Source of the DNA: Mytilus galloprovincialis
Lineage: Eukaryota; Mollusca; Bivalvia; Mytilida; Mytilidae
Direction: 5' to 3'
DNA: 64,000 bases
NCBI RefSeq assembly: GCF_965363235.1
Contig: NC_134842.1
Location: forward strand, 30,380,958 to 30,444,957
Position numbers and translations under genes: made by a program. Position 1 is the first letter of the stretch, and each line of letters starts with the position of its first letter. Below the pieces are notes generated by a model. It saw nothing but the letters and a program-made list of their open reading frames with translations, had not been told where the DNA came from and made no database searches. Shown here one piece after another: positions 5,985-62,037 of this stretch.

Positions 5985-6660
5985 AACTATAAAAAAGAAG
6001 ATGTGGTATGACTGCCAATGGGACAACTGTCCACAAGAGACCAACATGACACAGACATTAACAACTATAGGTCACCGTACGGCCTTCAACAATGAACAAA
6101 GCCCATACCGCATAGTCAGCTATAAAAGGCCCCGATATGACAATGTAAAACAATTTAAACGAGAAAACTAAAGGCCTTATTTATATATAAAAAAGAAAAA
6201 AAAAATAACGAAAAACAAAATTTATTATATGATTCAATATGTAACACATAAACAAACGACAACCACAGAATTACAGGCTCCTGACTTGGGACAGGCACAT
6301 ACATAAATAATGTGGAGGGGTTAAACATGTTAGCGGGATCTCAACCCTTCCCCTTACCTGGGACAGTGGTATATATAACAGTACAACATAAGAACGAACT
6401 ATAAAAATCAGTTGAAAAAGGTTTAACTCATCAGATAGACAAAAATACAATTGGACGTGGCCGGGTTCTTGAACATCCCGACAACAAAAAGACACTAGGA
6501 ACAGATCTGAGAGAACTCGCAGTTATCTGACAGCTAGTTCAAAGCCACTAACAACTAATAAAAAAATCATGCATCTTAGACTAAACTATCAATCCGTACA
6601 CATCCAACATCCAATGAATTTAGTGTAAAGACGTCATAAACAGTCAGAGAAAAACATGAC
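5985..6660 (-). repeat. Dispersed mussel repeat A, long copy
   Basis: Reverse-strand copy including the 'gtacggccttcaacaatga' and 'gacttgggacaggcac' modules and a longer right-hand part than the copy at 315-765. It lies just inside the left arm of the long-inverted-repeat element and was probably inserted there. Confidence 0.75.
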
Positions 6661-20341: not shown

Positions 20342-21174
20342 GATGTTGTCTGTGGTCAGATTAACCCAGCGTTAAGTCTTTCATGGTTGGTAGACTACGT
20401 AGTAAATATTTGTAAAGGTAATATAAGTTATCATGTTACTGTACAATTCATTTTTATAACACAAGTGAAACTGTGCCAAAGACGCTCATATATGTAACAT
20501 GTGTAATCGGTATTTTACACTACACACAATATTAAAGTGCACACTAGAAGATTATAATGTTATAAATATACTTATACAAGGAATATTTCATGCGTATCTT
20601 TTAAAGTAAATTCAATGTAACATACAATCAATGTAACAGTCGTAAAATTATAAATAAATCGATATGTGATCGATCAGGTGAAACAAATCTTACACCGTGT
20701 GGTTATGATTATAATCTTTATATTTATGAAAATATTTCATTGTGTATAAAATTAGAATATATATTTAAAATTATAATAAAGGGTGTATCTTTACAGTACA
20801 GTGGAACAGTGATCAAACATGATTGTTTTACTGCTATAAGTCAAATGATTCTTATTCAGTGGTTGTCATTGGTTGCAATCTGCTGTCATGGCTGTACTCC
20901 ATATGTTGAAATATAGAGTTTTGGCATATTTTTAATATTCATTTAAAGTGTTTTAGAATGATTTATTTTAGCTAGAGACGTCTTAAAAATGTTCAATATT
21001 AAATGTGTCAAAACTCCTAAATCAGCAACGTGTACAATAAGAGCTGAATATTTGGAAATATAAATAAAAAATAGTTATGTACATATGATATAGACTATTT
21101 GAACTCCTATGGCATGTACAGCAAATGACTAGTTCTAATGCTAATTCTACACTTGTATATATGCTACATACCAA
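20342..21174. other. 5' flank of the TLC gene / spacer before Naiad
   Basis: Presumably holds the promoter and 5' UTR of the minus-strand TLC gene, but no TATA box, initiator or non-coding exon can be called with confidence. No other gene seen. Confidence 0.4.
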
Positions 21175-21734
21175 AAACCCCTAACGGGAGGGATTGTACC
21201 TGATATTCATATGATGAAGACATAATCTTTCAATCAGTTTAATTGAGGTCTGGAGCTGGCATGTCAGTTAACTGCTAGTAGTCTGTTGTTATTCATGTAT
21301 TATTGTCATTTTATTTATTTTCTTTTGTTACATCTTTTGACATCAGACTCGGACTTCTCTTGAACTGAATTTTAATGTGCGTATTGTTATTGTTTTACTT
21401 TTCTACATTGGCTAGAGGTATAGGGGGAGGGTTGAGATCTCATAAACATGTTTAACCCCGCCGCAATTTTGCGCCTGTCCCAAGTCAGGAGCCTCTGGCC
21501 TTTGTTAGTCTTGTATGATTTTAAATTTTAGTTTCTTGTGTATAATTCGGAGTTTAGTATGACGTCCATTATCACTGTACTATTATGCATATTTTAGGGG
21601 CCAGCTGAAGGACACCTACGGGTGCGGGAATTCTCGCTACATTGAAGACCCATTGGTTGCCTTCGGCTGTTGTTTGCTCTATGGTCGGGTGGTTGTCGCT
21701 TTGACATATTCACCATTTCCTTTCTCAATTCTAT
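21175..21734 (+). repeat. Left pseudo-LTR of Naiad
   Basis: 560 bp, equal in length to 25209-25768. It corresponds to the tail of a tandemly placed element cut at its 5' side, inside the SECIS-like hairpin, so this copy lacks the hairpin's 5' strand. It contains a cACC(TACG)GGTg hairpin at 21613-21624. Confidence 0.95.
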
Positions 21735-22117
21735 TTTTTACAGAGTTTGTCTTTAGTGCCGTGTGGAGACAGTAGAGTGCCTCCCCGTGCTTAAGGTTTA
21801 TGCTCTTATATTATACTAGATTATGGAGGCGTGTGTCCGAGCGAGAACTTCTCTATGTTCATTACTTTAGGAATATCTATCAAAAAGTAGTATTTTAATA
21901 TTCAGCCCCATTCATCTATTTAGTCAGACGTCAGTCGCTACCCTGATATACCCTATCTTTTGTTAAATTTGTCGGGTAACTTATGACAATAAGCATTTGA
22001 CGTCTTGAGCCGAACAGTTTTATCATTTTTACACAATTTAATCTACTGTGTGATGGTTCATATTCTGGACGCCAGTCTTTGCTCCTTTGTAATAAATCTA
22101 CATACCAAAAAACAAAT

Positions 22118-25100
22118 ATGAAGCTTAGAAATGGAAAAATATTAAATACTAAACTCGTTCAAAGGGTATCTACACGTCTCAATCTTCAGAATCGCTTATC
22201 TAAAAATACTACTATAGCTAACGTTTTTAACAATAAAAATCGTGGTTACCCTTCTATCGATAAGTGTCATGCCAAAAAATGACTTACGTGTCCCCGTCTT
22301 TCCACCAACAATACAGTAAGGTCCACATTTAATGGTCGCACATTTTCTCTAAATTTTGAAACTGATATTACTTGAAAAACAAACAGTATTATTTATTTAC
22401 TCACATGAAACAAACCGGGATGCGGTATTCAGTACGTAGGTGAAACTGGGCGATATTTATCTAAACGCACGCAAGAACACCTGTATCGTTTTAAAAGACC
22501 CAATAAATTCAAAAGTATCATTTATCAACATCTTAAGAAGCACAGTCATCCTATTAAATATTTAACAGTTCAACCTTTAGAAGTAGTAAATAAGCAGCCT
22601 GGTGAATCTCATTCCAAGTTTGTACGATCACGAAAAATAAATGAATTAAATTGGATTAAAAAATTACAGACAGTCTACCCTCTCGGTCTTAATGATAATA
22701 TCATGGGAATTGGCAATATATCAAGAACCGATTCTGTTAACATTTTGGATATAGTTTCTAAAACTGTTCGTAAAAATCGTTCTCATGGACGCAGAAAAAA
22801 TCGCAATCAAAGAAAATTTCGGACCAACCATACAAATATTTCGGACCTAATTTCCATTTCAAAAAACAACGGCAGACATTATCTGTTAACCAAGCTTTGT
22901 TCTTTACCTATAAATAAATTAAATAAAATTTTAGAGGATTGCAACACAATTTCATATTACAGTCCTAAGTATGAAATTGTCCAAATTATAATGGCATATT
23001 GTTATTCTAAACTGTTTCCAAAAATTGATCGCCCTGAAGATCATAAAAAACATTTTATTAAAATAAAGTATGTCAATAAAGGTTTTGATTTTGTAAATAT
23101 TGCCGGTATTTTTAACGACCATTCTGTTAAAGACCAAATTCCTGGATATTTTGATAATACTGAACTCCCTCTCATTTGTTATATTTACAAGAAATCTACC
23201 CGAAAATATGTGTTTAATTATAGCCAATTGTGTAAAGATGTAAATATCACTGAAAATACACCTATGTCGTGTAATTGCAGTAATTCAGAATACACCTATG
23301 GACCAATTTCCCATGTTATAACAGGAGACCTTAACATCGTTCGCGACCGAGAGTTAAAATCATTCCTCAGTAAAGGACCTAAATATCGTCCCCCGTCAAC
23401 TATTAACTGGAATGAGTGTCGTAATATCATCAACGACTCACTCCGCGCCTACTGTTTGAAATGGGTAAAACGGGAAAAAGCTGACAAAAAATCTTTGGAC
23501 TCTTTTTTTAATTCAGTAATGAAGATAGTTGATATTCGAATACAACATTTTAAAGAACATTTTACCCTCAACAAAAACTATAAAAACCCTATTTCGCGTA
23601 TCAAAAATAAACTAACAGAACTAGCCAAGGAATTTGTTTTTGTCCCGGCTGATAAAGCTGCTAATAATATCATTAGTGTTTGACGTAAATTTTATATAGA
23701 GGTTCTGCAAAAGGAAATCACGAATTCACCAACATTCCAACTGACTTCATTTTCAGAAAACGACATCTGTAACAAACATAAACTTTTAGCTACTTCTTTA
23801 CAAGCAGAACCAAACACAATGAAAGTCCCAACTATGTACTGGCTTCCGAAGCTGCACAAAAAACCTTACAAATATAGATTTATTTCATCTTCCAGCCATT
23901 GTTCAACTACTAAATTGTCTGTTTTACTTACTAGTACACTTGGTACAATAAAAAACCTGATAATAAATTGTTCAAATAAGGCCTTTGAAAATAGTGGAAT
24001 TAATTACTTTTGGAGTGTCAAAAACTCGTTGGAAGTACTTGATAAATTGCATGCATATATTGGTGATTTTGAATCTGTTCAAAGTTTTGATTTTTCTACC
24101 CTATATACCACTTTGCCTCATATTCTTATTAAGAAAAAATTCACATCCCTAATTAACTGGGCATTTAAAAAGTCGGAATGCGAGTACATATGTTCAAACT
24201 CTTTTAGATCATTTTTTAGTAGCAATAAACAAAAGAACTATGTCAATTGGACATGCTTTGATACTATTTATGCACTTGAATTTTTACTTGATAACATTTT
24301 TGTTCGCTTTGGAGATTCCGTATATCGTCAAGTTATTGGAATTCCAATGGGGACTAACTGTGCACCACTTATTGCGGACCTGTTTTTGTATTGTTATGAG
24401 TTACAATTTATGACTAAAACTAGCAAAGACCCATCAAAACAACATTTGATACAAAAATTTAACAATACTTTTAGATATTTGGATGATATATTGGCTCTAA
24501 ATAATGACGACTTCAGTATGTATACTAAAGAAATTTATCCTGTAGAACTTACTTTAAATAAAGCTAATGATAACAATGACCACTGCCCTTTCCTCGATCT
24601 TGATATCTATATCATAAACGGGAAGCTTAATACAAAAATTTATGATAAAAGAGATGATTTTTCATTTCCTATTGTTAATTATCCATTTTTAGATGGTGAC
24701 GTTCCCTTGTCACCATCTTATGGTGTTTATATATCTCAACTTGTACGATTCGCTCGTGTATGTAACAATGTATTAGATTTTAGCGAGAGAAATTTATGTA
24801 TTACTGAAAAATTATTACACCAGGGTTTTCGATATCACAAACTGGTCAAAACATTTACTAAATTTTATCACCGGTATAAGGAAATAATTCGTAAATATAA
24901 CTCAACATGCAGACATCTTATACGTTCAGGTATTTCACATCCAAAATTTTATGGAAATATTCTTTATAAAGCACAAAAATGTCAGTATTCTCCTCAGAAA
25001 CTAACAAAACCTTTAAATAGACTTATTAAAAGGGGATATAGTTACGATACTGTTGTCAGGTCATTAAAGATTGCATATTTTGGCTTTAACATTGATTCAC

Positions 25101-25126
25101 TGATAGGGTCTTTGCATCGGAACTAA
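22118..25126 (+). CDS. Naiad GIY-YIG endonuclease-reverse transcriptase, likely selenoprotein
   Basis: One frame of 1,003 codons from ATG 22118 to TAA 25124. It contains no TAA or TAG but four TGA codons, at 22280, 22373, 22406 and 23681 (residues 55, 86, 97, 522). GIY-YIG endonuclease, residues ~86-170: 'SIIYLLT-U-NKPGCGIQYVGETGR'. Its family has the zinc pattern C...viYll.C..C..qYVGeT, so residues 86 and 97 sit on conserved cysteines. The CxC linker is C385-N-C387. Reverse transcriptase: 'YWLPKLHKKPYKYRFI', motif A D658 in 'FDFSTLYTT', motif B 'GIPMGTNCAPLIADL', and catalytic Y787-L-D789-D790. The enzyme would nick the target and prime cDNA synthesis there. Naiads from spiders and clams are known to encode several selenocysteines, so TGA recoding is the natural reading. 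Decay by chance is the alternative, but would favour TAA in this AT-rich DNA. The ATG was chosen because 'MKLRNGK' starts with no ATG closer upstream in frame. Confidence 0.88.
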
Positions 25127-25182
25127 ACACATTTATTTCTTAAAAAAAACAGTTGTTGGCATGACACGGGTTATGTTCTTCT

Positions 25183-25250
25183 CATATATTTTATGATAGT
25201 ATGATACTAAACCCCTAACGGGAGGGATTGTACCTGATATTCATATGATG
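25183..25250 (+). promoter_or_regulatory. Candidate SECIS element in the Naiad 3' UTR
   Basis: ATGA at 25201-25204 is followed by 12 nt, then AA at 25217-25218 in an apical loop, then 16 nt, then TGAT at 25235-25238. That is the order and nearly the spacing of a type 1 SECIS. The upper helix pairs TAC/GTA, AA/TT and CCC/GGG with a mismatch and a bulge. The lower helix pairs TATGA (25192-25196) with TCATA (25241-25245). It begins 75 bp past the TAA. A SECIS in the 3' UTR is what eukaryotic selenocysteine insertion at UGA requires. The upper helix is shorter than usual, so a covariance-model check matters. Confidence 0.6.
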
Positions 25251-25768
25251 AAGACATAATCTTTCAATCAGTTTAATTGAGGTCTGGAGCTGGCATGTCA
25301 GTTAACTGCTAGTAGTCTGTTGTTATTCATGTATTATTGTCATTTTATTTATTTTCTTTTGTTACATCTTTTGACATCAGACTCGGACTTCTCTTGAACT
25401 GAATTTTAATGTGCGTATTGTTATTGTTTTACTTTTCTACATTGGCTAGAGGTATAGGGGGAGGGTTGAGATCTCATAAACATGTTTAACCCCGCCGCAA
25501 TTTTGCGCCTGTCCCAAGTCAGGAGCCTCTGGCCTTTGTTAGTCTTGTATGATTTTAAATTTTAGTTTCTTGTGTATAATTCGGAGTTTAGTATGACGTC
25601 CATTATCACTGTACTATTATGCATATTTTAGGGGCCAGCTGAAGGACACCTACGGGTGCGGGAATTCTCGCTACATTGAAGACCCATTGGTTGCCTTCGG
25701 CTGTTGTTTGCTCTATGGTCGGGTGGTTGTCGTTTTGACATATTCACCATTTCCTTTCTCAATTCTAT
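25209..25768 (+). repeat. Right pseudo-LTR of Naiad
   Basis: 560 bp, matching 21175-21734 with one difference seen (T for C in 'gtcgttttgac'). It holds the 3' strand of the SECIS-like hairpin and, at 25647-25658, the second copy of the TACG-loop hairpin. Confidence 0.95.
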
Positions 25769-26514
25769 AAGTTGAATGAATTCGTGCGTCTTTTGCTACG
25801 GCTCTCAAAATATTGTCTAACGACTAATTTCTACCAAAAAAAAAGTGATGAACATTTCAGTATAATTTAATTTCGAAGTAAGAGTTTTTGTGAAAAGAAC
25901 CCAAAGAATTATACTTTTAAAATTCTTAAATATCTACACATAAAAGAATTTGTCACTTAATATAAGACAGCAACCAGAGTCTGGGCAGACAAAAATACCC
26001 ATCATTACTTAACAAGCGAAGACATATTTCTTTTAATTAAAACATGACAAAACTGCAATCTAATATTCATGGCATATTTTATAGTTTCAGTTTTTCACTT
26101 GTTATCCCAAAAACACAGTTGTACGATTGATGCACAATATATCAATCCAAAGTTCAAGGAAAGTGGGCTTAATTGTCCGTAATGTTCAAAAAACCATTTT
26201 TTGATGATTGTATGTGAAAAAAATGTTACGCGTCTCTATTGTGTATGGTCACATGAACGGCCTACTCAAATATATATATATTTCGTTTCATATCTACCTA
26301 AAGGGAATTAGTTAACTAATCTTATTGTTGCATCGAATTGTCTGTTTTCTCTAGTGGCAGTATCCATTCAACAAATACTGCTAATTTAGTAGCTAGCTTC
26401 CGGAGATATCGAAAAAAAAAATCCACTTTGATTTCCAAATTATGAATAATGTTTCCTTGTCTATGTTTGTAGTCATCCTGTCGGTAAAAGGTTTTTAATT
26501 ATGTGTTAAAAAAA
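25769..26514. other. Non-coding spacer
   Basis: No gene or recognisable repeat. AT-rich. Confidence 0.5.
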
Positions 26515-36915: not shown

Positions 36916-37729
36916 CTTGCTTATTTTTGCACAGACACTGGTGACGATTTATAAAGACCGAGTAGCAGCTGCAAGCTATTGAATACATAATTAGTTGGAA
37001 AAGTATAGACCGTATGCAGGTGACGTTGATAAGTTGCTAAGAATCTGGTGGAAACTGGCTATTTCAATTAATATTATTCTGTTTTCAAGATGATCGCTTA
37101 TGTCAAACTTGAGGTACAAGTTAAATTTCCAGTTCTGAAGGATACCCCAACGGAGCCCTATCCGAAAAGCCCGGAAAGAACATCATCAATATATCAAAAA
37201 GTGAAATCAATGTACCGGCTTCCATTATCTTCCTGTTTTTGACAAATGTCTGAGAGACTCCAACCGATATGAATACAAGAAGCGGTCGACTAGGAGAGGT
37301 GAACAGTTCTTTCTCATTGGAATGCCGATAACTTGTCAAAAAAATCAACATCAAATTCCAACAAATATGTTGTCATTAAACAAAAGTCCAGCATACATGT
37401 TTCAAACCCATATTCAACACCAATTAAAAACATACATAAGTAACAAATGTAAAGCGCATGCCACCATGATCAAATTGAGAAAAAAATATTTGTAGAAGAG
37501 GATCAGTCGGTCAGCAAGAATACGTGTTTTTCGAGTATTTATCACAAACGAAATTTCGCCGCCAAATTCAGATTAAATAAAATCTAGGGACTGAAAATAA
37601 CACCAAAAAAAAATAAGAAATACATTTTATATTTATTAGTTGTACCTTTTCGTTTCTACAATGTACTTGTTTGTATTTTTTCGTGTGGGCTTGTATCATA
37701 TTTGCCTTCAGGTTTAAATAATCTGTCCA
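36916..37729. other. Non-coding spacer
   Basis: Only an unassigned minus-strand open frame (37121-37354). No domain, splice context or repeat family could be recognised. Confidence 0.35.
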
Positions 37730-38260
37730 TCCTAATTCGACTTTTCAAAATCTAAGAGTCTCGCTATCTTAAATTGATTATTATATGGCCTTCCAATTGA
37801 AAACACCGTTTCGATTCCTAACATCACCGAAGAGACATTTATAATTGTCGTAATCCGGATATTGTGTAAAAAATTTTGCACTTCATGTTTGTGGTATACC
37901 TATTTTCCGTAAGTTTATTGTTTCCTGTTTGGTAATAGATTAATAGACTATTAATCTATTACCAAACAGGAAACATTACAAAAGATCCATTTTGTTACAT
38001 CTGGTAATCCTTTTTTATTTGGCAATCGCCATGGCAGTCAGCATTGTTTATGAATATCTGTTGTTTGACCTGCTAGACTAGTCAACTGTGTTTTGTTAAA
38101 ATATTCTTTTTTACTTTTTTTTGAAATGTGGTTTGTGCTGTACTTAAACCAATCTACCAAGTTTGTTTTGCATGCAAATTTAAAAAAAAATCGGTGTTTA
38201 TCCAATGCAATCATAGGTTTGAACGTTGTTTTCAATTAAGACTTGTTTATGTTTGAAACC
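37730..38260 (+). repeat. Dispersed mussel repeat C, copy 1
   Basis: Shares 'gattcctaacatcac', 'gaagagacatt', 'aagtttattgttt', 'gttacatctggt' and 'caatcataggttt' in order with 51590-51990. The copies differ by many substitutions and by the palindrome at 37919-37975. The open frames inside are not conserved between copies. Confidence 0.7.
37919..37975. repeat. 57-bp perfect palindrome
   Basis: Two perfect 28-bp arms, from 'tgtttcctgtttggtaatag' onward, flank a single central base. The equivalent place in the related repeat copy at about 51700-51715 has only the left-arm-like 'tgtttactgt', so the hairpin is an addition to this copy. Confidence 0.95.
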
Positions 38261-47034: not shown

Positions 47035-48915
47035 ATCTACCATCGCTCACCGACAAACTATCCATGTCAACTTCGGTCAGCAACAAACTAAACGCGTCAA
47101 CATCGGTCACCGATCAACTATCCGTGTCAACATCGGTCAGCGACAAACTATCCATGTCAACATCGGTAAACGGACAAACTATTCGTGTCAACATCGGTCA
47201 TTGACAAACTATCCGTGTCATCATCGGGCACCGACAAATTATCCGTGGCAAAATCGGTCACTGACAAACTATTCGTGACAAATTGGTCAGCGACATACTA
47301 TCCGTGTCAACATCGGTCAGCGACAAACTATCTGTCAAAATTGGTCAGCGACAATCTATCCGGGTCAACATCGGTCAGCGACAAACTACCGTGTCAACAT
47401 CTGGCATCGACAAACTGTCCGTGTCAACATCGGTCAGCGACAAACTATCTTTGTCAAATTTGGTCAGCAACAATCTATCCGTGTCAACATCGGTCAGCGA
47501 CCAACTACCGTGTCAACATCTGCAACCTACAAACTATCCATTTTAACATCGGTCACCGAGCAAAAATCAGTGTCACCATTGGTCATCGACAAACTATCCG
47601 TGTCAACACCGGTCTGCGACAAACTATTCGTGTCAGCATCGGTCATCGACAAACTATCCGTGTCAACATAGGTCTGCGACAAACTATGTTTGTCAGCATC
47701 GGTCATCGACAAACTATCCGTGACAACATCGGTCTGCGACAAACTATTTGTGTCAAAATCAGTCATCGACCAACTATCCGTGTCAGCATCGGTCACCGAC
47801 CAGGTTGACATCGACCAACTATCCGTGTCTGCATCTGTCACCGACAAACTATCCGTATCAACATCGGTCACCGACAATTTACTCTTGTCAACAATGATCA
47901 GCGACAAACTATCCGTGTCAACATCGTTCACCGACAATTTATCCGTAACAACAATGATCAGCGATAAACTATCCGTGTCAAAATTGGTCAGCAAAAAAAC
48001 TATCCGTGTCAAACTCGATCACTGGTAATCTATCCGTGTCAACATCGGTCACTGACCAACTACCGTGTCAACATCTATCACCGTCAAACTATTCGTGTCA
48101 AAATCGGTCAGCGACAAACTACCATGTCAACATCTGCCACCGACAAACTATCCGTTTCAACATCGATCAGCGAAAAACTATCTGTGTCAAAATTGGTCAG
48201 CGACAATCTATCCGTGTCAACATTTGTCAGCGACCAACTACCGTGTCAACATCTGCCAGCGACAAACTATCCATTTCAACATCGGTCACTGAGCGACTAT
48301 CCGTGTCAACATTAGTCATCGACAAACTATCCGTGTCAACACCGGTCTGCGACAAACTATTTGTGTCAGCATCGGTCGTCGACAAACTATCCGTGTCAAC
48401 ATCGGTCTGCGACAAACTATGCGTGTCAGCATCGTTCACCGAATGACTATCCGTGTCAACATCGGTCTGCGACAAACTATCTGTGTCAAAATCGGTCACC
48501 GAAAAACTATCCGTGTCAGCATCGATCAACGACCAAAATTACATCGACCAACTATCCGTGTCAGCATCTGTCGCCGACAAACTATCCGTGTCAATATCGG
48601 TCACCGACAATTTATTCGTGACACAATGATCAGCGACAAACTATCCGTGTCAGCATCGGTCACAGAAAATTTATCCGTAACAACAATGATCAGCAACAAA
48701 CTATGCATGTCAAAATTGGTCAGCGACAATCTATCCTGTCAAAATCGATCACCGGCAATCTATCCGTGTCAACATCGGTCACTGACCAACTACCGTGTCA
48801 ACATCTGTCACCGACAAACTATTCGTGTCAAAATCGGTCAGCGACAAACTATCCGTATCAACATCGTTCACTGACCAACTACTCGTATTACCATCGCGCG
48901 ATCACCGACAGTTAA
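47035..48915 (+). repeat. 30-bp minisatellite, about 60 units
   Basis: Unit consensus approximates 'acaaactatccgtgtcaaca' followed by 'tcggtcagcg'. Being a multiple of 3, it yields open frames in several frames on both strands: plus-strand 'SVSTSVTDKL' or 'RQTIRVNIGH' and minus-strand 'DTDSLSVTDV' ten-residue repeats. Units vary (27- and 30-bp forms, AG/CC/AT variants). Blocks of several units recur, for example around 47283-47546 and 48124-48315, so segments were duplicated. No start signal, signal peptide or splice context supports a protein-coding role. Confidence 0.9.
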
Positions 48916-52234: not shown

Positions 52235-54600
52235 CAATACAGTGCTTTATTTTAAAATCACTCCGTCACATTGACATGTGAAACAAGAGGTAAATTATAA
52301 AATACAATCACATACAAATAAAGAAATAAATAAAACAATTTACAAATGAAATATATAGAAAATTACTTTACTTTATATTATAATATTTTAATATTATAAT
52401 ATTTTAGGTAACTTTGAAATGAATAAAGACACATTTTTAAGTACGTTAATATTAGTCAATAACAGTAGTCCTTTCATTTTTGCTTCACTTGGTTATTTCA
52501 CATAGCACTCTGGAATATGCTGATTTCTGATATTTTTCACTAATAAAGAATTGCATTCAAATAAATAATCGTATTCATTGCCAATTGCAGTTAAACACAA
52601 ATTACATGGCCTGTCTTCTTTTTGAATGTTATAACATCTTCCCAGCTCTACTGGAATTTTTACATTGCAGCATCTTAATAAATGATTTTGAAATATATTT
52701 GCGTTCGAATGGTGTTAATTTTAAAAGATAGTTTTCTAAGCCAAAGATTGTTTTAAAAAGTCCATAAAATTCTCCTTTGGATGAGTTGTCAATTTGACTA
52801 TGCCATTGTTAAATGAATGCACCTTTTAGTTTTTCTGTCAGTACGATTTTTAGTTGATTTATATCTAATGGTGATTGCTGAGTCCAAACATAGCTTAGTC
52901 CGGCATTGTCTAGGATCGATTTAATATAATCCATCCATTTGAAAGTGTGATCATCTTTTAAGTTGAACATAATTTGATAAAGTATATTGCTAAGTTTATT
53001 TTCATTGGTGAGAAGTTTAATTGTTCCAAAAACATGTACGACCAAGTTCTCCATATGTCATAAAATTTGGTGCCGACGATCTAATTTTCAACACATTCCG
53101 GCAAATCTGTAGATGGAATTTTTCCAGTGACATGTAATTGTTTCCGAATCCCCATATTTCACATCCATGTGTCAGATTGGAAGTACAAGTGCATCAACAG
53201 TTGTAAATAAACTCATCATAGATACCAGGACTAAATTTAGTATATACGCCTGACGCGCGTTTCGTCTACAAAAGACTCATCAGTGACGCTCGAATCCAAA
53301 AAAGTTAAAAAGGCCAAATAAAATACGAAGTTGAAGACTTGTAATTGTAAGTCGACAGGTATTGAGAGGTTACGTTTCTTTGTATAGAGACTAAAAAGAG
53401 CTTTCTGTGCTTGTTCGCAAAGACGTTTCTTCGCTGTTGCAAATGAACCATTGTAATTAAAGGTTAGTCCTAGATATGGATAAAAATCTTGAATTTCAAT
53501 AGACTGGTTAAATATTTGAAACTTTGGTAATGTTCTTGATTTCCGTTTGCAGAACACAACAACCTTTGTCTTCGATAAATTAACTTTTAACTTCCATCGG
53601 ACACATATCTTTCAAAAACATTTAAGGCGTGTTGCATTGATTCGGCCGTTTCAGATAAATTATAGTGTCGTCGGCGTACAAAAGAACGAAAGGTTTAATA
53701 TATATATATATATATGCAAATGATTGTGGCAAATATTTTCGATAACTTGCAAGTTCTGAACATCATTCTCAGCAAAGAAAGAATCCAGGTCGTTTAGATA
53801 AACAGCAAATAAAAAGGGGATGTTTTCTGCCTGTCTCACTCCAATGTTACAGTTAAAAATGGCTGACACTTCGTCGGAACTTCCCATTATTTACGCAAGA
53901 TTTAACATCACTATACATACTATATATTACCTTAAAAATTTTCCTAAAAATATTCGCCTTTTGTTATTTTATCCATAAAGATGTATAAGAGATTGTATCA
54001 AAGGCTCTCGAAAAATCAACAAAAGTGCAAAAAGAGTTTTTTTTCCAAGTGCTTGATAAATTAATATTAATGAATGTATTACAAGTATGTTATCCAATGT
54101 ACTATAACCTTTTCTGAAACATGTTTGAGCCTCGGAAATCAGATTGATCTCAGTTGATAGTTCCACAATTATTTCATTTAAGATAGATGTGAAAGTTTTC
54201 CCACGACATGACACTAATGTTATTGGTCTGTACGAGCTAGAATCGTATATATTGCCTTTATTCTTGAAGATAGGTGGAATAATTCCCATTGTCCATGAAT
54301 CTGGTACCTTCCCAGTATTTAAAACAATGTTGAATAACTTGTGGTAGATGGTCAACATTTCCTTAACCGTATGTTTAATATGTGCATTCACAATACCATC
54401 ATATCCAACTGACTTTCTTTTAAACGTTGATCGATGTTTCCTAAAACATCTTTTGTCTGTTTTTGTTTCTACAAATATAGAGATATCACTGTTGATAACG
54501 AGTTCTGAAAATTCTGGTGCTAAAGATTTTGATTTAAGTTCACATATGTTTAAAAATGAAAATTGCAATGCACCTCTTGCTGACCTGTCCTATAAATGAG
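52235..54600 (-). pseudogene. Decayed non-LTR retrotransposon (LINE)
   Basis: Reading right to left: an endonuclease N-terminal scrap ('SFLNICELKSKSLAPEFSEL', ~54568), joined directly to reverse transcriptase ('SVGYDGIVNAHIKHTV', 'SYRPITLVSCRGKTFTSIL', 'ISEAQTCFRKGYSTLDNIL'), so most of the endonuclease has been deleted in frame. Then come 'VYLNDLDSFFAENDVQ' (53.8 kb), 'YLGLTFNYNGSFATAKKRL' (53.4 kb), and a C-terminal 'CNLCLTAIGNEYDYLFEC' knuckle-like segment (about 52.6 kb). The catalytic YADD region is lost, and frames break several times between the pieces. Repeat E is inserted at 53200-53345. It is related in style to the intact LINE at 57-62 kb but clearly a different family. Dead copy. 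Confidence 0.85.
53200..53345 (-). repeat. Repeat E fragment inserted in the minus-strand LINE
   Basis: 'gtaaataaactcatcata', 'cgcctgacgcgcgtttcgtc' and 'aaaagactcatcagtgacgc' match the reverse of 49.9-50.1 kb. It cuts the LINE's C-terminal coding region, so it arrived later. Confidence 0.75.
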
Positions 54601-56985: not shown

Positions 56986-57339
56986 TCATAACGTGACAGG
57001 GTTAGTGAAGGTCGTGGGTAGTATTATGGTGAGACAAAAAACAGTTTTATTGTTGTTTATAATTATATTTACACGACGAGACTCATGGAAGATGTTTATT
57101 CTATAAGGACGATACTATAAATTGAAAATTTGTATAAAAACAATCGTTACATCACGTTTACCGAGCAAAGGTTAGTTTGTAATAGATCACGCCGTTCGAA
57201 ATATTCGAGTACACCCAAACCCGGAAGTCAACAATCGTTTGTTTACATTATTATTATACCAGTGTCAACATTGATGCCAATTTGTCACTAATATCAGTAT
57301 TTCTATTGAACTTATTGTTTCCGAACTTTATTTATCAAC

Positions 57340-58554
57340 ATGACTAGAAACAAGTTAAATACAAATGCAAAGCGTAAACTGAAAGATTTGTCAAATAATA
57401 CAGACCCAGAATTTGATTCTCCAACACAACAACCTTATAAAAAGGGATCGAAAAAACTTTCGAAAAACAACACCAGCGTTCATTCTATTCACGAGGGCTT
57501 GTCGTCCGATAAGACACCTGATAATCAGAAGCATGCCTATAATACGCAAACCAGTACACCGCTTCAGTACCCGTACCCGCTCCCTTTTCCTGGCCCCCCT
57601 CCAGCTCATTCTGGATCATATCCGTCATTTAGTTGGCCGCCACCTCCAGTGGCTGATAACAACGTTCTTGGTCATATTATGCAATACATCACAACAATCG
57701 ATAGCCGGCTTAGTAATTTAGAAAATATGGACAAAAAAATCGATAAATTGGAAAGTTTTTGTGAAAATATGGAGAACTTGTATATTCGAGTCAAAAAAAC
57801 TGAAACCGGTATTGAAACCCTAACTTCACAGATGACTGAAGTACAAGATATATGCGTTTCTCATAAAATAAAACTTGACGAGTTATGTGTAGAGAAGGAT
57901 ACCATGTGGGTAGCTATTGCCGCTGGTGGGGCAGGTAGTCCAGGCAAAGGGTCTAAAATTAAAAAGGAACTAGAACAAATACAAAAACAAAACGAAGAAC
58001 TGAAATCAACCGTGACAGATCTGCAATGCGAATCTCTGAAACAAAACTTGGTGTTCTACGGAGTCGTTGACCAACCGGGTGAAAACACCGACAGTCTATT
58101 AAAAGGATTTATCCGTTCTGAAATCAACATAAAAAGCGAAATTAAATTTGTTAATGTTAGACGCATCAACAGCAAATTCAATCCACGTCCCATACTTGCC
58201 TCGTTTGAAAGTTTGAAAGACCGGGAAAAAGTGCGCCGTTCAGCTTATAGATTAAAGGGAACTCCTTTCAGCCTGAGTGAGCAGTACCCATCAGATATTC
58301 TTGCTAAACGGAAAAGGTTAATCCCAATTTTAAAAGAAGCCCGAAGTCAAAATGTCAAGGCAGTGTTGCTCAAGGACAAGCTTTACATTGATAATGATGT
58401 TTTCGACCCTTTAAAACACAAGCAATTTATAAAGGAGTCAACAGTGGCATTTCCTAGTGGTGCTAGTTCTGGGAATTCGAAGGCGAAGAGCACAGTTGGT
58501 AGTAACGATGATGACCCGGATCCCAATAGCAGTATGGCTGAGAAGGAAGACTAG
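57340..58554 (+). CDS. LINE ORF1 protein, coiled coil plus RRM-like domain
   Basis: 404 aa. The N-terminal ~110 residues are basic and then proline-rich ('PYPLPFPGPPPAHSG'). A long heptad-bearing coiled coil spans about 112-235 ('DSRLSNLENMDKKIDKLES'). From ~236 comes an L1-ORF1p-like RRM and C-terminal domain: 'NLVFYGVVDQPG', 'VRRINSKFNPRPILASF', 'KVRRSAYRLKGTPF', 'LKEARSQNVKAVLLKDKLYI'. Proteins of this kind trimerise, bind the element RNA and act as nucleic-acid chaperones. The ATG at 57340 is preceded by the leader. The frame ends in TAG at 58552, in the same frame as ORF2. Confidence 0.85.
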   Translation: MTRNKLNTNAKRKLKDLSNNTDPEFDSPTQQPYKKGSKKLSKNNTSVHSIHEGLSSDKTPDNQKHAYNTQTSTPLQYPYPLPFPGPPPAHSGSYPSFSWPPPPVADNNVLGHIMQYITTIDSRLSNLENMDKKIDKLESFCENMENLYIRVKKTETGIETLTSQMTEVQDICVSHKIKLDELCVEKDTMWVAIAAGGAGSPGKGSKIKKELEQIQKQNEELKSTVTDLQCESLKQNLVFYGVVDQPGENTDSLLKGFIRSEINIKSEIKFVNVRRINSKFNPRPILASFESLKDREKVRRSAYRLKGTPFSLSEQYPSDILAKRKRLIPILKEARSQNVKAVLLKDKLYIDNDVFDPLKHKQFIKESTVAFPSGASSGNSKAKSTVGSNDDDPDPNSSMAEKED

Positions 58555-61500
58555 GATAGCGTTGAAGGACTTCCAACTAGTGTTTCATCTAACATTTGTA
58601 CTGAGAGTTTGAAATTTATCTCGTGGAATATTAATGGTGGTTTACAAACAAAACTTGATGATAAAGCATTTGTAAATTTTTTATGTACATATGATCTTGT
58701 TTTTCTTACGGAATGTTGGTTTGAAAAAGATTTTTCATTTCATTTACCTGATTATAATTGTCATTTATTCCCTCGATTGAAAGCTAAATCTATTCAGGGA
58801 GGAGGTAGTGTTATCTTGATTAAAAAATGTTTTTCTACTGTTATTGATATTGAAACTTGTATTTTAGACTCTATTGTATGGTTGAATATTAAGCAGGGTA
58901 TATTAACCAAAGACAAATCTGTATATATTGCTTGTATTTATATTCCCCCAGTCAAATCTAAATACTATAAGTTATATGATTGTGATTTATACAATGAGTT
59001 AGAAAATAGCATTGAGTTATACTCTGAACTTGGTCACGTTTTTATTCTTGGGGATTTGAATGGTCGAACTGGGACGTTAGTCGATTTCCTGGAAAATGAT
59101 GATATTCATTTTACTTTAAAGAACCGAATTTGTGGCGCTTTCGAATATTTAGCCGATAGTGTTCTCCCGAAAAGAGTCAATCCCGATTTAAATACAAACA
59201 GTTATGGATCTAAAATAATTAGTATGTGTAAATCCTCAGGCTTAAGAATAGTGAATGGTAGACACAAAAACGGATTTTCAAATGACTTTACATATTGTGG
59301 CCCTATTGGTATGAGCGTTCTGGATTACTTCATTGTACCTTCGTTTTATTTCCCGAATATAAACCAGTTAATTGTGTCAAACTTTACAACTTATTCGGAC
59401 CATGCATTTTTACATTTAGAACTGAATTTATTAATAGACACCATGCGAAACACAGGCAAATGCTCAGATGCCATGGAAGATACAGAACGTCGTGTTAAAT
59501 ACAAATGGAAAGATGAATTTAAAGAACAGTGTACTGAGTGTATCCGTATCAATATGGACAATATCATTCGTTTACAGAATCGTATAAACTTTGAAAATCA
59601 AAATTCTTTTGATAAATCGTTGAGCAATTTTACATGTATGATAGAGGACATTATGTCGCCTTTCTTTAAAACGATGCCTTATGTAAACAACAAGCCGTAT
59701 AAACCAGTTAATTATTTTGACAAACCTTGGTTCAACACACGATGCAAGGAACTTTATCGATGTTATATAGATTATCTACATGTTTTCAATCGTTCAAAAT
59801 CAATTGTAAACCATACAAACTTAACTTGTGCAAAGAGGGAATATAAAGTTATGGAACGTCGTCTTAAGCGAGAATACCAACGTATAGAGGGTAATGCAAT
59901 GGACTTTTTGAAATATAGTAACCCAAAACTGTTTTATTCGAAATTTAGGAAAAGGACCGAAAAGAAAAATAATGTACCGTTACAATCTTTCTATGAACAC
60001 TTTAAAAAATTGTCTTCTGTGAATATAGACAATACATGTGACGAAGATTTATTTAATAACACTGATGGCGATTGTGTATATCCTGAACTTGATGAAGTGA
60101 TTACAGAGGAGGAGATATTAAAAGCCATCCGCAATTTAAAGCGCAATAAAAGTCATGGAGTAGACGGTATTTTGAATGAATATTTTATAGAGTATAAAGA
60201 TGTTTTTATGCCAATATTAGTCAAGGTTTTCAATGGTATTTTACAATCCGGTATATTCCCTACTAGCTGGGCCATTGCTATACTTGTGCCTATTTTCAAG
60301 AAAGGAAACGAAGACGATCCAAATAACTATAGAGGTATAAGTCTTGTAAGTAATTTCGCAAAATTATTTACTTCCGTATTAAATCAACGTTTGATGGACT
60401 GGTCTGATTCTTTTGATGTCATTACTGACGCCCAGTTCGGCTTTCGCCCAGGTTTTGGAACTGTAGATGCAATTTTTGCCCTAATTTCTGTAATTTTTAA
60501 GTCCCTATCAGCAAACAAACGTCTTTATTGTTGTTTTGTTGATTACACAAAAGCATTCGATACTGTTCAAAGGCTAATGCTATGGTATAAATTATCAAAA
60601 ATTGGTATTCAAGGTAAACTTTTAACTGTTATTAAATCTATGTATACTAATGTGTCTACTTGTGTATGTGTTGATGGTTTTAATTCTGAATACTTTTCCA
60701 ATGAATTGGGCTTGATGCAGGGAGAGGTGTTATCTCCCATACTTTTTTCATTATATGTTAACGATTGTGAAATGGCTTTCATTAATAGTAATGCCATACC
60801 ATATGAGATGAAAGAATTGAATTTATTTTTACTTATGTATGCTGATGATATGGTTATTTTCTCAGAATCTGTTTTGGGGTTACAAAATATGCTTGATACA
60901 TTATATGAGTATACATCAAAATGGTCATTGAGTGTTAATATTGATAAAACTAAAATTGTTGTATTTAGGAAAGGTGGAAGAGTTCATGTTGATGAGAAAT
61001 GGTATTATGATAATAAGGAAATTGAAGTTGTTGATAATTTTACTTACCTTGGTGTACTTTTAAATTTTAATGGCAAATATAATATGTTACAACAGAAATT
61101 GTCAGAACAAGGTAGAAAAGCAATGTTTGCTTTAAGAAGAAATGTGAAAAGTATGTGTTTAAACTATGTCACTTTGTTATCACTGTTTGATACTTATATA
61201 AATTCTTTATTGAGTTATGCAAGCGAAATATGGGGTGCACATAAAGCCCCGGCAATAGAGAGAGTCCACATGAACTATTGTAAAAATATACTTGGTGTTA
61301 AGTTGTCTACTAACAATGTTATGATATATCAAGAACTAGGTAGATTGCCTCTTATTTTCGCAAGAAAATGTAAGATTTTCAAATATTGGTTTAAATTGCT
61401 AAATACTTCAAACTGTATATTGAAAAATTGTTATAACTACTTGTATTGTGAATTAGAGAGATGTCCAAATAATAAGTGTAACTGGTTGTATTTTATAAAG

Positions 61501-62037
61501 AACGAACTTTTTCTTATTGGTTTAGGTGATGTATGGTATAGCCAAAACCTTATTTGTGACTTGCCTGATGTATATTTTGCTGTCATAAAGCAACGTTTAT
61601 ACGATTGTCTAAAACAAGAACTTGATGCTCAGTTACATATGTCTCCAAAATGTTCTAATTATAAATATATGTTAGATAATTTTTGTCTGCAATTTTATTT
61701 ATGCAAACCAATTCCAAATGTTTACAAAAAATGTATAACAAAAATAAGATTAAGTAGCCACAACTTAGCTATAGAAAATGGAAGATTTTATGGTATAACA
61801 AGAAATAATAGAATATGTACTTTTTGTAAAAATGATATAGAGGATGAGTTTCATTTCATCCTCAAATGTCCACGTTTTCAAGGTTTTAGAACAATTTATA
61901 TTAAGCCATTTTATTGGAAAAAACCGTCGATGTACAAATTTATCAAACTGATGAGTACTAATAATGTAAAAGAATTGTGTAATTTAGGTAAATTTATTTT
62001 TAGATCTTTTAAGCTTAGATCCGAAATGTTAAAATAA
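58555..62037 (+). CDS. LINE ORF2 protein, endonuclease plus reverse transcriptase
   Basis: Open from the codon after ORF1's TAG to TAA at 62035. Residues below count from TTG 58609 (1,142 codons). APE endonuclease: 'KFISWNINGG' at the very start, 'LTECWF', 'GDLNGRTG', 'SVLDYF' and S263-D264-H265. Reverse transcriptase: 'NKSHGVDGILNEYF', 'NNYRGISLVSNFAKLFTSVL', 'DAQFGFRPGFGT', D645 in 'CFVDYTKAFDTVQ', 'GLMQGEVLSPILFSLYVND', and catalytic Y744-A-D746-D747. The C-terminal zinc knuckle is C1070, C1073, H1082, C1087. It nicks target DNA and copies its RNA in place. There is no in-frame ATG before the endonuclease core (the first Met is at about residue 207). Translation must therefore come through the TAG, by reinitiation, or from a non-AUG codon. 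Confidence 0.88.
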   Translation, partial: DSVEGLPTSVSSNICTESLKFISWNINGGLQTKLDDKAFVNFLCTYDLVFLTECWFEKDFSFHLPDYNCHLFPRLKAKSIQGGGSVILIKKCFSTVIDIETCILDSIVWLNIKQGILTKDKSVYIACIYIPPVKSKYYKLYDCDLYNELENSIELYSELGHVFILGDLNGRTGTLVDFLENDDIHFTLKNRICGAFEYLADSVLPKRVNPDLNTNSYGSKIISMCKSSGLRIVNGRHKNGFSNDFTYCGPIGMSVLDYFIVPSFYFPNINQLIVSNFTTYSDHAFLHLELNLLIDTMRNTGKCSDAMEDTERRVKYKWKDEFKEQCTECIRINMDNIIRLQNRINFENQNSFDKSLSNFTCMIEDIMSPFFKTMPYVNNKPYKPVNYFDKPWFNTRCKELYRCYIDYLHVFNRSKSIVNHTNLTCAKREYKVMERRLKREYQRIEGNAMDFLKYSNPKLFYSKFRKRTEKKNNVPLQSFYEHFKKLSSVNIDNTCDEDLFNNTDGDCVYPELDEVITEEEILKAIRNLKRNKSHGVDGILNEYFIEYKDVFMPILVKVFNGILQSGIFPTSWAIAILVPIFKKGNEDDPNNYRGISLVSNFAKLFTSVLNQRLMDWSDSFDVITDAQFGFRPGFGTVDAIFALISVIFKSLSANKRLYCCFVDYTKAFDTVQRLMLWYKLSKIGIQGKLLTVIKSMYTNVSTCVCVDGFNSEYFSNELGLMQGEVLSPILFSLYVNDCEMAFINSNAIPYEMKELNLFLLMYADDMVIFSESVLGLQNMLDTLYEYTSKWSLSVNIDKTKIVVFRKGGRVHVDEKWYYDNKEIEVVDNFTYLGVLLNFNGKYNMLQQKLSEQGRKAMFALRRNVKSMCLNYVTLLSLFDTYINSLLSYASEIWGAHKAPAIERVHMNYCKNILGVKLSTNNVMIYQELGRLPLIFARKCKIFKYWFKLLNTSNCILKNCYNYLYCELERCPNNKCNWLYFIKNELFLIGLGDVWYSQNLICDLPDVYFAVIKQRLYDCLKQELDAQLHMSPKCSNYKYMLDNFCLQFYLCKPIPNVYKKCITKIRLSSHNLAIENGRFYGITRNNRICTFCKNDIEDEFHFILKCPRFQGFRTIYIKPFYWKKPSMYKFIKLMSTNNVKELCNLGKFIFRSFKLRSEMLK

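Follow-up and report, generated by a model that had tools for sequence, protein, structure and literature searches.

A stretch of 64,000 nucleotides from the mussel Mytilus galloprovincialis (contig NC_134842.1, positions 30,380,958 to 30,444,957 of the forward strand), referred to below as the window, carries at 22118–25126 the coding region of what is best explained as a young Naiad-type Penelope-like retroelement. Its single protein, which joins a GIY-YIG endonuclease, a CxC motif and a telomerase-like reverse transcriptase (RT), would be a selenoprotein with four selenocysteines (Sec), a reading to which a probability of about 0.88 is assigned on the basis of sequence. The initial annotation had proposed such a four-Sec Naiad from the open frame, and the proposal is upheld by a selenocysteine insertion sequence (SECIS) in the 3′ untranslated region (UTR), by a homologous tail with a SECIS of its own, and by cysteine (Cys) at all four sites in stop-free Penelope-type relatives.

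Most known selenoproteins are host enzymes in which Sec takes part in redox catalysis. According to the abstract of work by Craig, Yushenova, Rodriguez and Arkhipova from 2021, spider and clam Naiads reportedly encode selenoproteins with several selenocysteines. They reportedly have in common with the mussel element an N-terminal GIY-YIG domain, a CxC linker, pseudo-long terminal repeats (pseudo-LTRs) and, on the reading proposed here, a Penelope-like RT and several selenocysteines. Selenoprotein Naiads are thus said to be on record already in spiders and clams, and the element at 22118–25126 would add another. Literature searches on Penelope-like elements together with selenocysteine, with and without Naiads, returned no paper on the combination, and no title on selenocysteine in retroelements was among those listed.

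Architecture and reading frame of the element

The features of the element are given below in order of position; loci with an L number are the relatives described under a later heading.

21175–21734, forward strand: upstream pseudo-LTR, the 3′ tail of a 5′-truncated tandem copy, beginning inside the SECIS; 559 of 560 bp identical to 25209–25768.
21735–25768, forward strand: inferred full-length element unit of 4,034 bp, from the pseudo-LTR spacing (4,034) and the partial-tandem organisation.
22118–25126, forward strand: open reading frame (ORF) for a GIY-YIG endonuclease and RT, 1,002 residues, four in-frame TGA codons, stop codon TAA (translation).
22262–22696, forward strand: N-terminal GIY-YIG endonuclease region, residues 49–193 (blastp with TGAs as X: L018, E 6.9e-18; L022, E 1.1e-14).
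22280–22282, forward strand: TGA codon 55, proposed Sec, within K-C-x4-U-x2-C; Cys in L018 (TGT) and L022.
22373–22375, forward strand: TGA codon 86, proposed Sec, ahead of KT..IIYLL; Cys in L018 (TGC) and L022.
22406–22408, forward strand: TGA codon 97, proposed Sec, opening the C-x(2-4)-C ahead of the YVG motif; Cys in L018 (TGT) and L022, gap in L024.
23270–23278, forward strand: CxC motif (CNC, residues 385–387), in the linker that joins the endonuclease to the RT (sequence).
23609–24922, forward strand: probable Penelope-like RT region, approximately residues 498–935, with FDFSTLYT, GIPMGTNCAP and YLDD boxes (boxes; similarity to RT fragments).
23681–23683, forward strand: TGA codon 522, proposed Sec, in the RT motif VPADKAANNIISV-U-RKFY; Cys (TGT) in L004, where the motif reads VPADKASNNIVFV-C-KSYY, and Met in the decayed L010/L013.
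25183–25247, forward strand: SECIS element, overlapping the beginning of the downstream pseudo-LTR (Rfam SECIS_1, 30.9 bits).
25209–25768, forward strand: downstream pseudo-LTR, the 3′ end of the unit (559 of 560 against 21175–21734).

With TGA read as Sec, translation of the forward strand runs through the whole ORF without an internal TAA or TAG, and the four listed codons are the only in-frame TGAs. The other five frames of 22118–25126 each contain 48–126 stops, and TAA is the most frequent stop in all five. Chance expectations were obtained from a simple model that counts the single-base changes by which sense codons of the ORF become stops; the four TGAs were set to a Cys codon, sites were treated as independent, and transition weights of 1, 2 and 4 were used. 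Under this model, 26–27% of random stops are expected to be TGA and 5–6% to be TGA arising at a Cys codon; the probability that all four stops are TGA is approximately 0.004–0.005, and that all four are TGA on Cys codons approximately 5e-6 to 1.4e-5 over the three weights. The initial annotation had described a frame free of TAA and TAG up to its final TAA, with TGA codons at 55, 86, 97 and 522, and had argued that random decay would give mainly TAA; the translation confirms the frame, with 1,002 codons preceding the TAA.

The base that follows the TGA is C at codons 55 and 522 (TGA CTT and TGA CGT) and A at codons 86 and 97. Upstream of the chosen ATG, the ORF frame is open, TGA aside, back to a TAA at 21977; this stretch (21977–22117) holds an ATG followed five codons on by a fifth in-frame TGA (21998), and is probably 5′ UTR.

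Hallmarks of Naiads include a CxC motif in the linker, the lack of a canonical hammerhead ribozyme, a CCHH motif in the endonuclease and an insertion-in-fingers domain. In the mussel protein, the RT boxes (residues 657–790), which we take to be those of a Penelope-like RT, lie C-terminal to the endonuclease. When the TGA is written as Cys, alignment A3 is invariant at position 97, C102, H138 and H144, which may correspond to the published CCHH motif of Naiads. The order endonuclease–CNC–RT, the pseudo-LTRs and the lack of a hammerhead match fit a Naiad-type Penelope-like element. The N-terminal GIY-YIG and the CxC motif, which the initial annotation named as Naiad features, and the near-identical pseudo-LTRs that it reported are all present.

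Naiad is named as a class in an excerpt of PMC10941475. A 5′-truncated copy followed by a full unit fits the pseudo-LTR spacing as a partial tandem, an organisation described for Penelope-like elements in excerpts of PMC11167929 and PMC3846280. Similarly, the Penelope/Poseidon element PAc of Anolis, as far as the excerpt of PMC11167929 describes it, combines GIY-YIG and a telomerase-like RT in one ORF and forms partial tandems with pseudo-LTRs. PAc has its endonuclease at the C-terminus and carries a hammerhead ribozyme, whereas the endonuclease is N-terminal here and none of the four Rfam matches listed for 21000–26000 (E up to 10) is a hammerhead.

The single mismatch between the pseudo-LTRs points to a copy that would be young. 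The element would also be transcribed and mobile. The RT part resembles RT fragments found in symbiont assemblies, and no match of the RT part to Pfam RVT_1 was listed up to E 10. Pfam GIY-YIG was likewise absent from the matches, listed to E 10, of the endonuclease piece of the window; its relative L018 matches that family at E 5.5e-8. Sequence searches of PDB gave nothing meaningful, with one match at E 1.3, and the AlphaFold2 model of the endonuclease piece alone was unusable (mean predicted local distance difference test score 38.4).

SECIS elements in the 3′ UTR and in a second tail

The SECIS_1 match falls outside 22118–25126, in the 3′ UTR, and starts 57 bases beyond the last base of the stop codon. 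Both core arms (UUAUGA and UGAU) and the apical AAA are present. Its E value is 0.0033 when 5 kb are searched with all 4,227 Rfam families and 0.042 when the 64-kb window is searched with all of them; the latter divided by the number of families gives approximately 1e-5 for SECIS_1 alone. Of the 14 Rfam matches listed with E up to 10 for the 64 kb, just two are to SECIS_1, and this one scores higher. The equivalent stretch at 21149–21213 lacks the 5′ half of the hairpin, so the upstream pseudo-LTR has no complete SECIS of its own.

The other SECIS_1 match belongs to a second tail, which was found in the present work together with the comparison of the two hairpins.

6275–6645, reverse strand: tail from the 3′ end of a related element, diverged in sequence and carrying a SECIS at 6579–6645 (BLASTN, local alignment and SECIS_1 at 24.4 bits).

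A piece of the pseudo-LTR matches 6416–6275 with 74% identity over 147 aligned columns (BLASTN), approximately 160 bases downstream of the second SECIS. When this piece is left out, a local alignment (25169–25340) covers the SECIS and approximately 90 bases beyond it with a score of 70, which none of 1,000 shuffles reached (mean 30.9, standard deviation 5.0, maximum 63). When the two hairpins are compared through the model's alignment, the fitting to which favours pairing, 9 of the 15 stem pairs have both bases replaced and still form a pair in each copy; of the others, 3 are identical and 3 are broken in one of the two hairpins. Upstream of the second tail (6275–6645), no remnant of a coding region turned up.

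A third copy of the tail core lies at 359–419 (GATCCCGCTAACATGTTTAACCC...CCTGTCCCAAGTCAGGAGCCT) and is, by eye, nearer to the copy at 6275–6416 than to the Naiad tail. The Rfam search of the 64-kb window gave no SECIS match beside it. The tail core may be common to several repeats.

Relatives, their Cys columns and neighbouring features

Relatives were sought in collections of plasmid, phage, viral and prokaryote genomes. Plasmids and phages gave none by tblastn with the whole protein or with the L018 protein, and viral contigs none with the whole protein, three RT/thumb pieces, alignment A1 or two DNA patterns. An initial scan of prokaryote genome contigs was also without a relative. A degenerate GIPMGTNCAP pattern found two stretches in prokaryote assemblies, L001 and L002. 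The former, from Bryobacterales, was rejected as a chance match (best 14 amino acids, E 0.066), and the latter is a true fragment on a contig labelled as from a Bathymodiolus septemdierum symbiont (G001). The family of G001 gave matches in 3 of 83 genomes (G001, G058 and G070), the order consists of the same 83, and the class gave 1 of 369, again G001. Of the 16 matches listed in the family search, 10 hold stops of mixed kinds.

The retroelement pieces L002–L024 in symbiont assemblies are probably host DNA. Such eukaryote-type pieces in G001, G058 and G070 would be contamination, yet they offer a route to animal relatives. The 3′ UTR of the element and its 21-base tail core were not found in these three assemblies by searches that had no known positive.

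The pieces that cover TGA columns without stops are L018 and L022, both GIY-YIG domains from G058, and L004, an RT fragment from G001 that is stop-free in its matching part and has stops upstream within its translated stretch. Both endonuclease relatives carry Cys at columns 55, 86 and 97 (2/2 each), and L004 carries Cys (TGT) at 522 (1/1). Alignment tools write Sec as Cys; with the TGAs entered as X instead, Cys was again found at each of the four columns in 3/3 MAFFT modes. L024 and L010/L013 were left out of the counts of Cys columns, L010/L013 being one decayed place read twice. Two further loci, L021 and L023, lie on the contig of L018, and L021 is the L018 stretch again.

Alignment A3 has 137 fully aligned endonuclease columns, 8 of which are Cys in both relatives, and all three TGAs are among these 8. 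Similarly, L004 has Cys at 5 of the 142 RT columns of alignment A2, one of which is TGA 522. The joint chance of TGAs falling in such columns over both alignments is approximately 5e-6. The initial annotation had placed codons 86 and 97 on zinc-ligand cysteines; both are Cys columns in L018 and L022. Six positions of the mussel protein are Cys or TGA where both endonuclease relatives have Cys, of which three are TGA and three are ordinary Cys codons (50, 58 and 102).

A further Penelope-like piece is found elsewhere in the window.

37237–37398, reverse strand: decayed RT fragment of another Penelope-like element (48% identity over 54 amino acids, E 2.3e-7, with stops).

Approximately 500 bases upstream of it on the minus strand, 37914–37982 forms a near-perfect palindrome of approximately 69 bases (by eye), to which several microRNA models match weakly. 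The window also has animal features such as a rhodopsin-type receptor and long interspersed nuclear elements (LINEs). One LINE, at 57310–62037, has two long open frames of 414 and 1,160 codons from stop to stop, the second of which matches RVT_1 (6e-32) and Exo_endo_phos (3e-7), and it may be intact; compared with G058, the LINE gave one match of approximately 98 bases with 70% identity. A type I hammerhead-like match at 53246–53289 on the minus strand (27.6 bits; gathering score 34) lies outside the Naiad element and near an RT remnant at 53969–54589. In addition, 47170–48915 is a long array of short diverged repeats in which several overlapping frames are open on both strands.

Alternative explanations and significance

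Several observations weigh against the four-Sec reading. Both SECIS_1 scores, 30.9 and 24.4 bits, lie below the Rfam gathering score of 35. The bare core ATGA..AAA..TGAT is not enriched in the window (7 matches against 9.97 expected), and the minimum-energy fold of the SECIS stretch by RNAfold does not give the whole SECIS model; the SECIS is therefore argued from the covariance model, from its position and from the second tail. The relatives are few (two endonucleases and one RT) and distant (29–41% identical), and no close full-length copy turned up in the collections searched. Pairwise blastp with X places codon 86 opposite a gap that adjoins the Cys of L018. L024, a distant GIY-YIG piece (E 1.6e-4) free of stops, has no Cys cluster and shows a gap at 97; in L010/L013, a decayed copy interrupted by TGA and TAA, the Met at 522 adjoins a gap of five residues. 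Over all matches that cover the column, Cys is thus seen in 2/3 at 97 and 1/2 at 522. Furthermore, the frames of L018 and L022 stop directly after the GIY-YIG domain and would come from proteins with a C-terminal endonuclease, so the Cys cluster would predate the relocation of the domain from one end of the protein to the other.

The four TGAs might be ordinary nonsense mutations in the ORF of a Cys-encoding Naiad, with a SECIS-like hairpin arising by chance. The decayed fragment at 37237–37398, the mixed stops in most of the listed symbiont-assembly matches and SECIS scores under the curated cut-off are in keeping with decay of this kind. It is nevertheless very improbable in view of a 3-kb frame open to TAA and TAG, of TGA confined to columns with Cys in stop-free Penelope-type relatives, and of a SECIS at the expected place that is kept with compensating changes in a diverged tail. 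Moreover, with a single mismatch over the 560 bp of the pseudo-LTRs, the gain of four nonsense mutations after insertion is unlikely.

UGA followed by C is a leaky context. Readthrough of leaky stops, or a suppressor tRNA, could therefore yield a short peptide of the endonuclease region and a little full-length protein without any Sec, and the C after codons 55 and 522 is in its favour. A follows codons 86 and 97, however; four leaky stops in series would leave almost no product, and the Cys at the aligned columns and the SECIS in the 3′ UTR would be left unexplained, so that this account is the least credible of those considered. A variant that is compatible with the four-Sec reading accepts Sec as real and does without special chemistry: once an ancestor had gained a SECIS, Sec codons could stand in for Cys codons and the reverse, and drift turned four sites into TGA. 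The mixture of three TGA and three ordinary Cys codons among the six conserved positions is what drift would give. Such exchange should carry a cost, since each UGA risks termination, and the SECIS in two diverged tails suggests that Sec is needed in that lineage; drift is held to be a real possibility at somewhat less than even odds.

Under the four-Sec reading, the hairpin 57 nucleotides beyond the UAA would recruit the selenocysteine machinery of the host, which in animals comprises SBP2, eEFSec and tRNA-Sec, and UGA at codons 55, 86, 97 and 522 would be decoded as Sec. Three of the residues would fall in the Cys cluster around the endonuclease and one in the RT fingers of an enzyme that would nick DNA and then prime reverse transcription. 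Sec insertion is predicted from the frame, the hairpin and the aligned Cys, and coordination of zinc by Sec at 86 and 97 is possible. Full-length protein would be made only where selenium is available and all four UGAs are passed; it should therefore be scarce, at a level that tracks selenium status.

In bivalve selenoprotein P, too, many UGAs of one animal message are read as Sec (excerpts of PMC8230778 and PMC8744743). Selenoprotein P is the product of a host gene, whereas the element encodes a mobile-element enzyme. According to these excerpts, oyster SELENOP has 46 Sec and that of a bivalve 132 (PMC8230778), and selenoprotein P of Elliptio complanata has 133 (PMC8744743). Bivalves are thus reported to read dozens to more than 100 UGAs in selenoprotein P, and four would lie within the reach of a bivalve host.

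Why a selfish element with several Sec at conserved Cys sites, where their role is probably structural, should accept four recoding events per protein is the question that the element raises. Since one window holds both a SECIS and an open copy that looks young, reporter assays could address it. The second SECIS-bearing tail suggests that the trait lasted across families: the two tails lie within 64 kb, share 74% identity over the part aligned by BLAST and each carry a compensated SECIS, which would mean that the lineage kept its recoding. That dependence on Sec is an old and selected trait of this bivalve Naiad lineage, with recoding kept while families diverged, is a tentative proposal that we regard as rather doubtful at present. 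If it is true, the mobility of the element would be tied to the selenium status of its host, and Sec in the Cys cluster of the endonuclease would alter metal binding or the redox control of DNA nicking.

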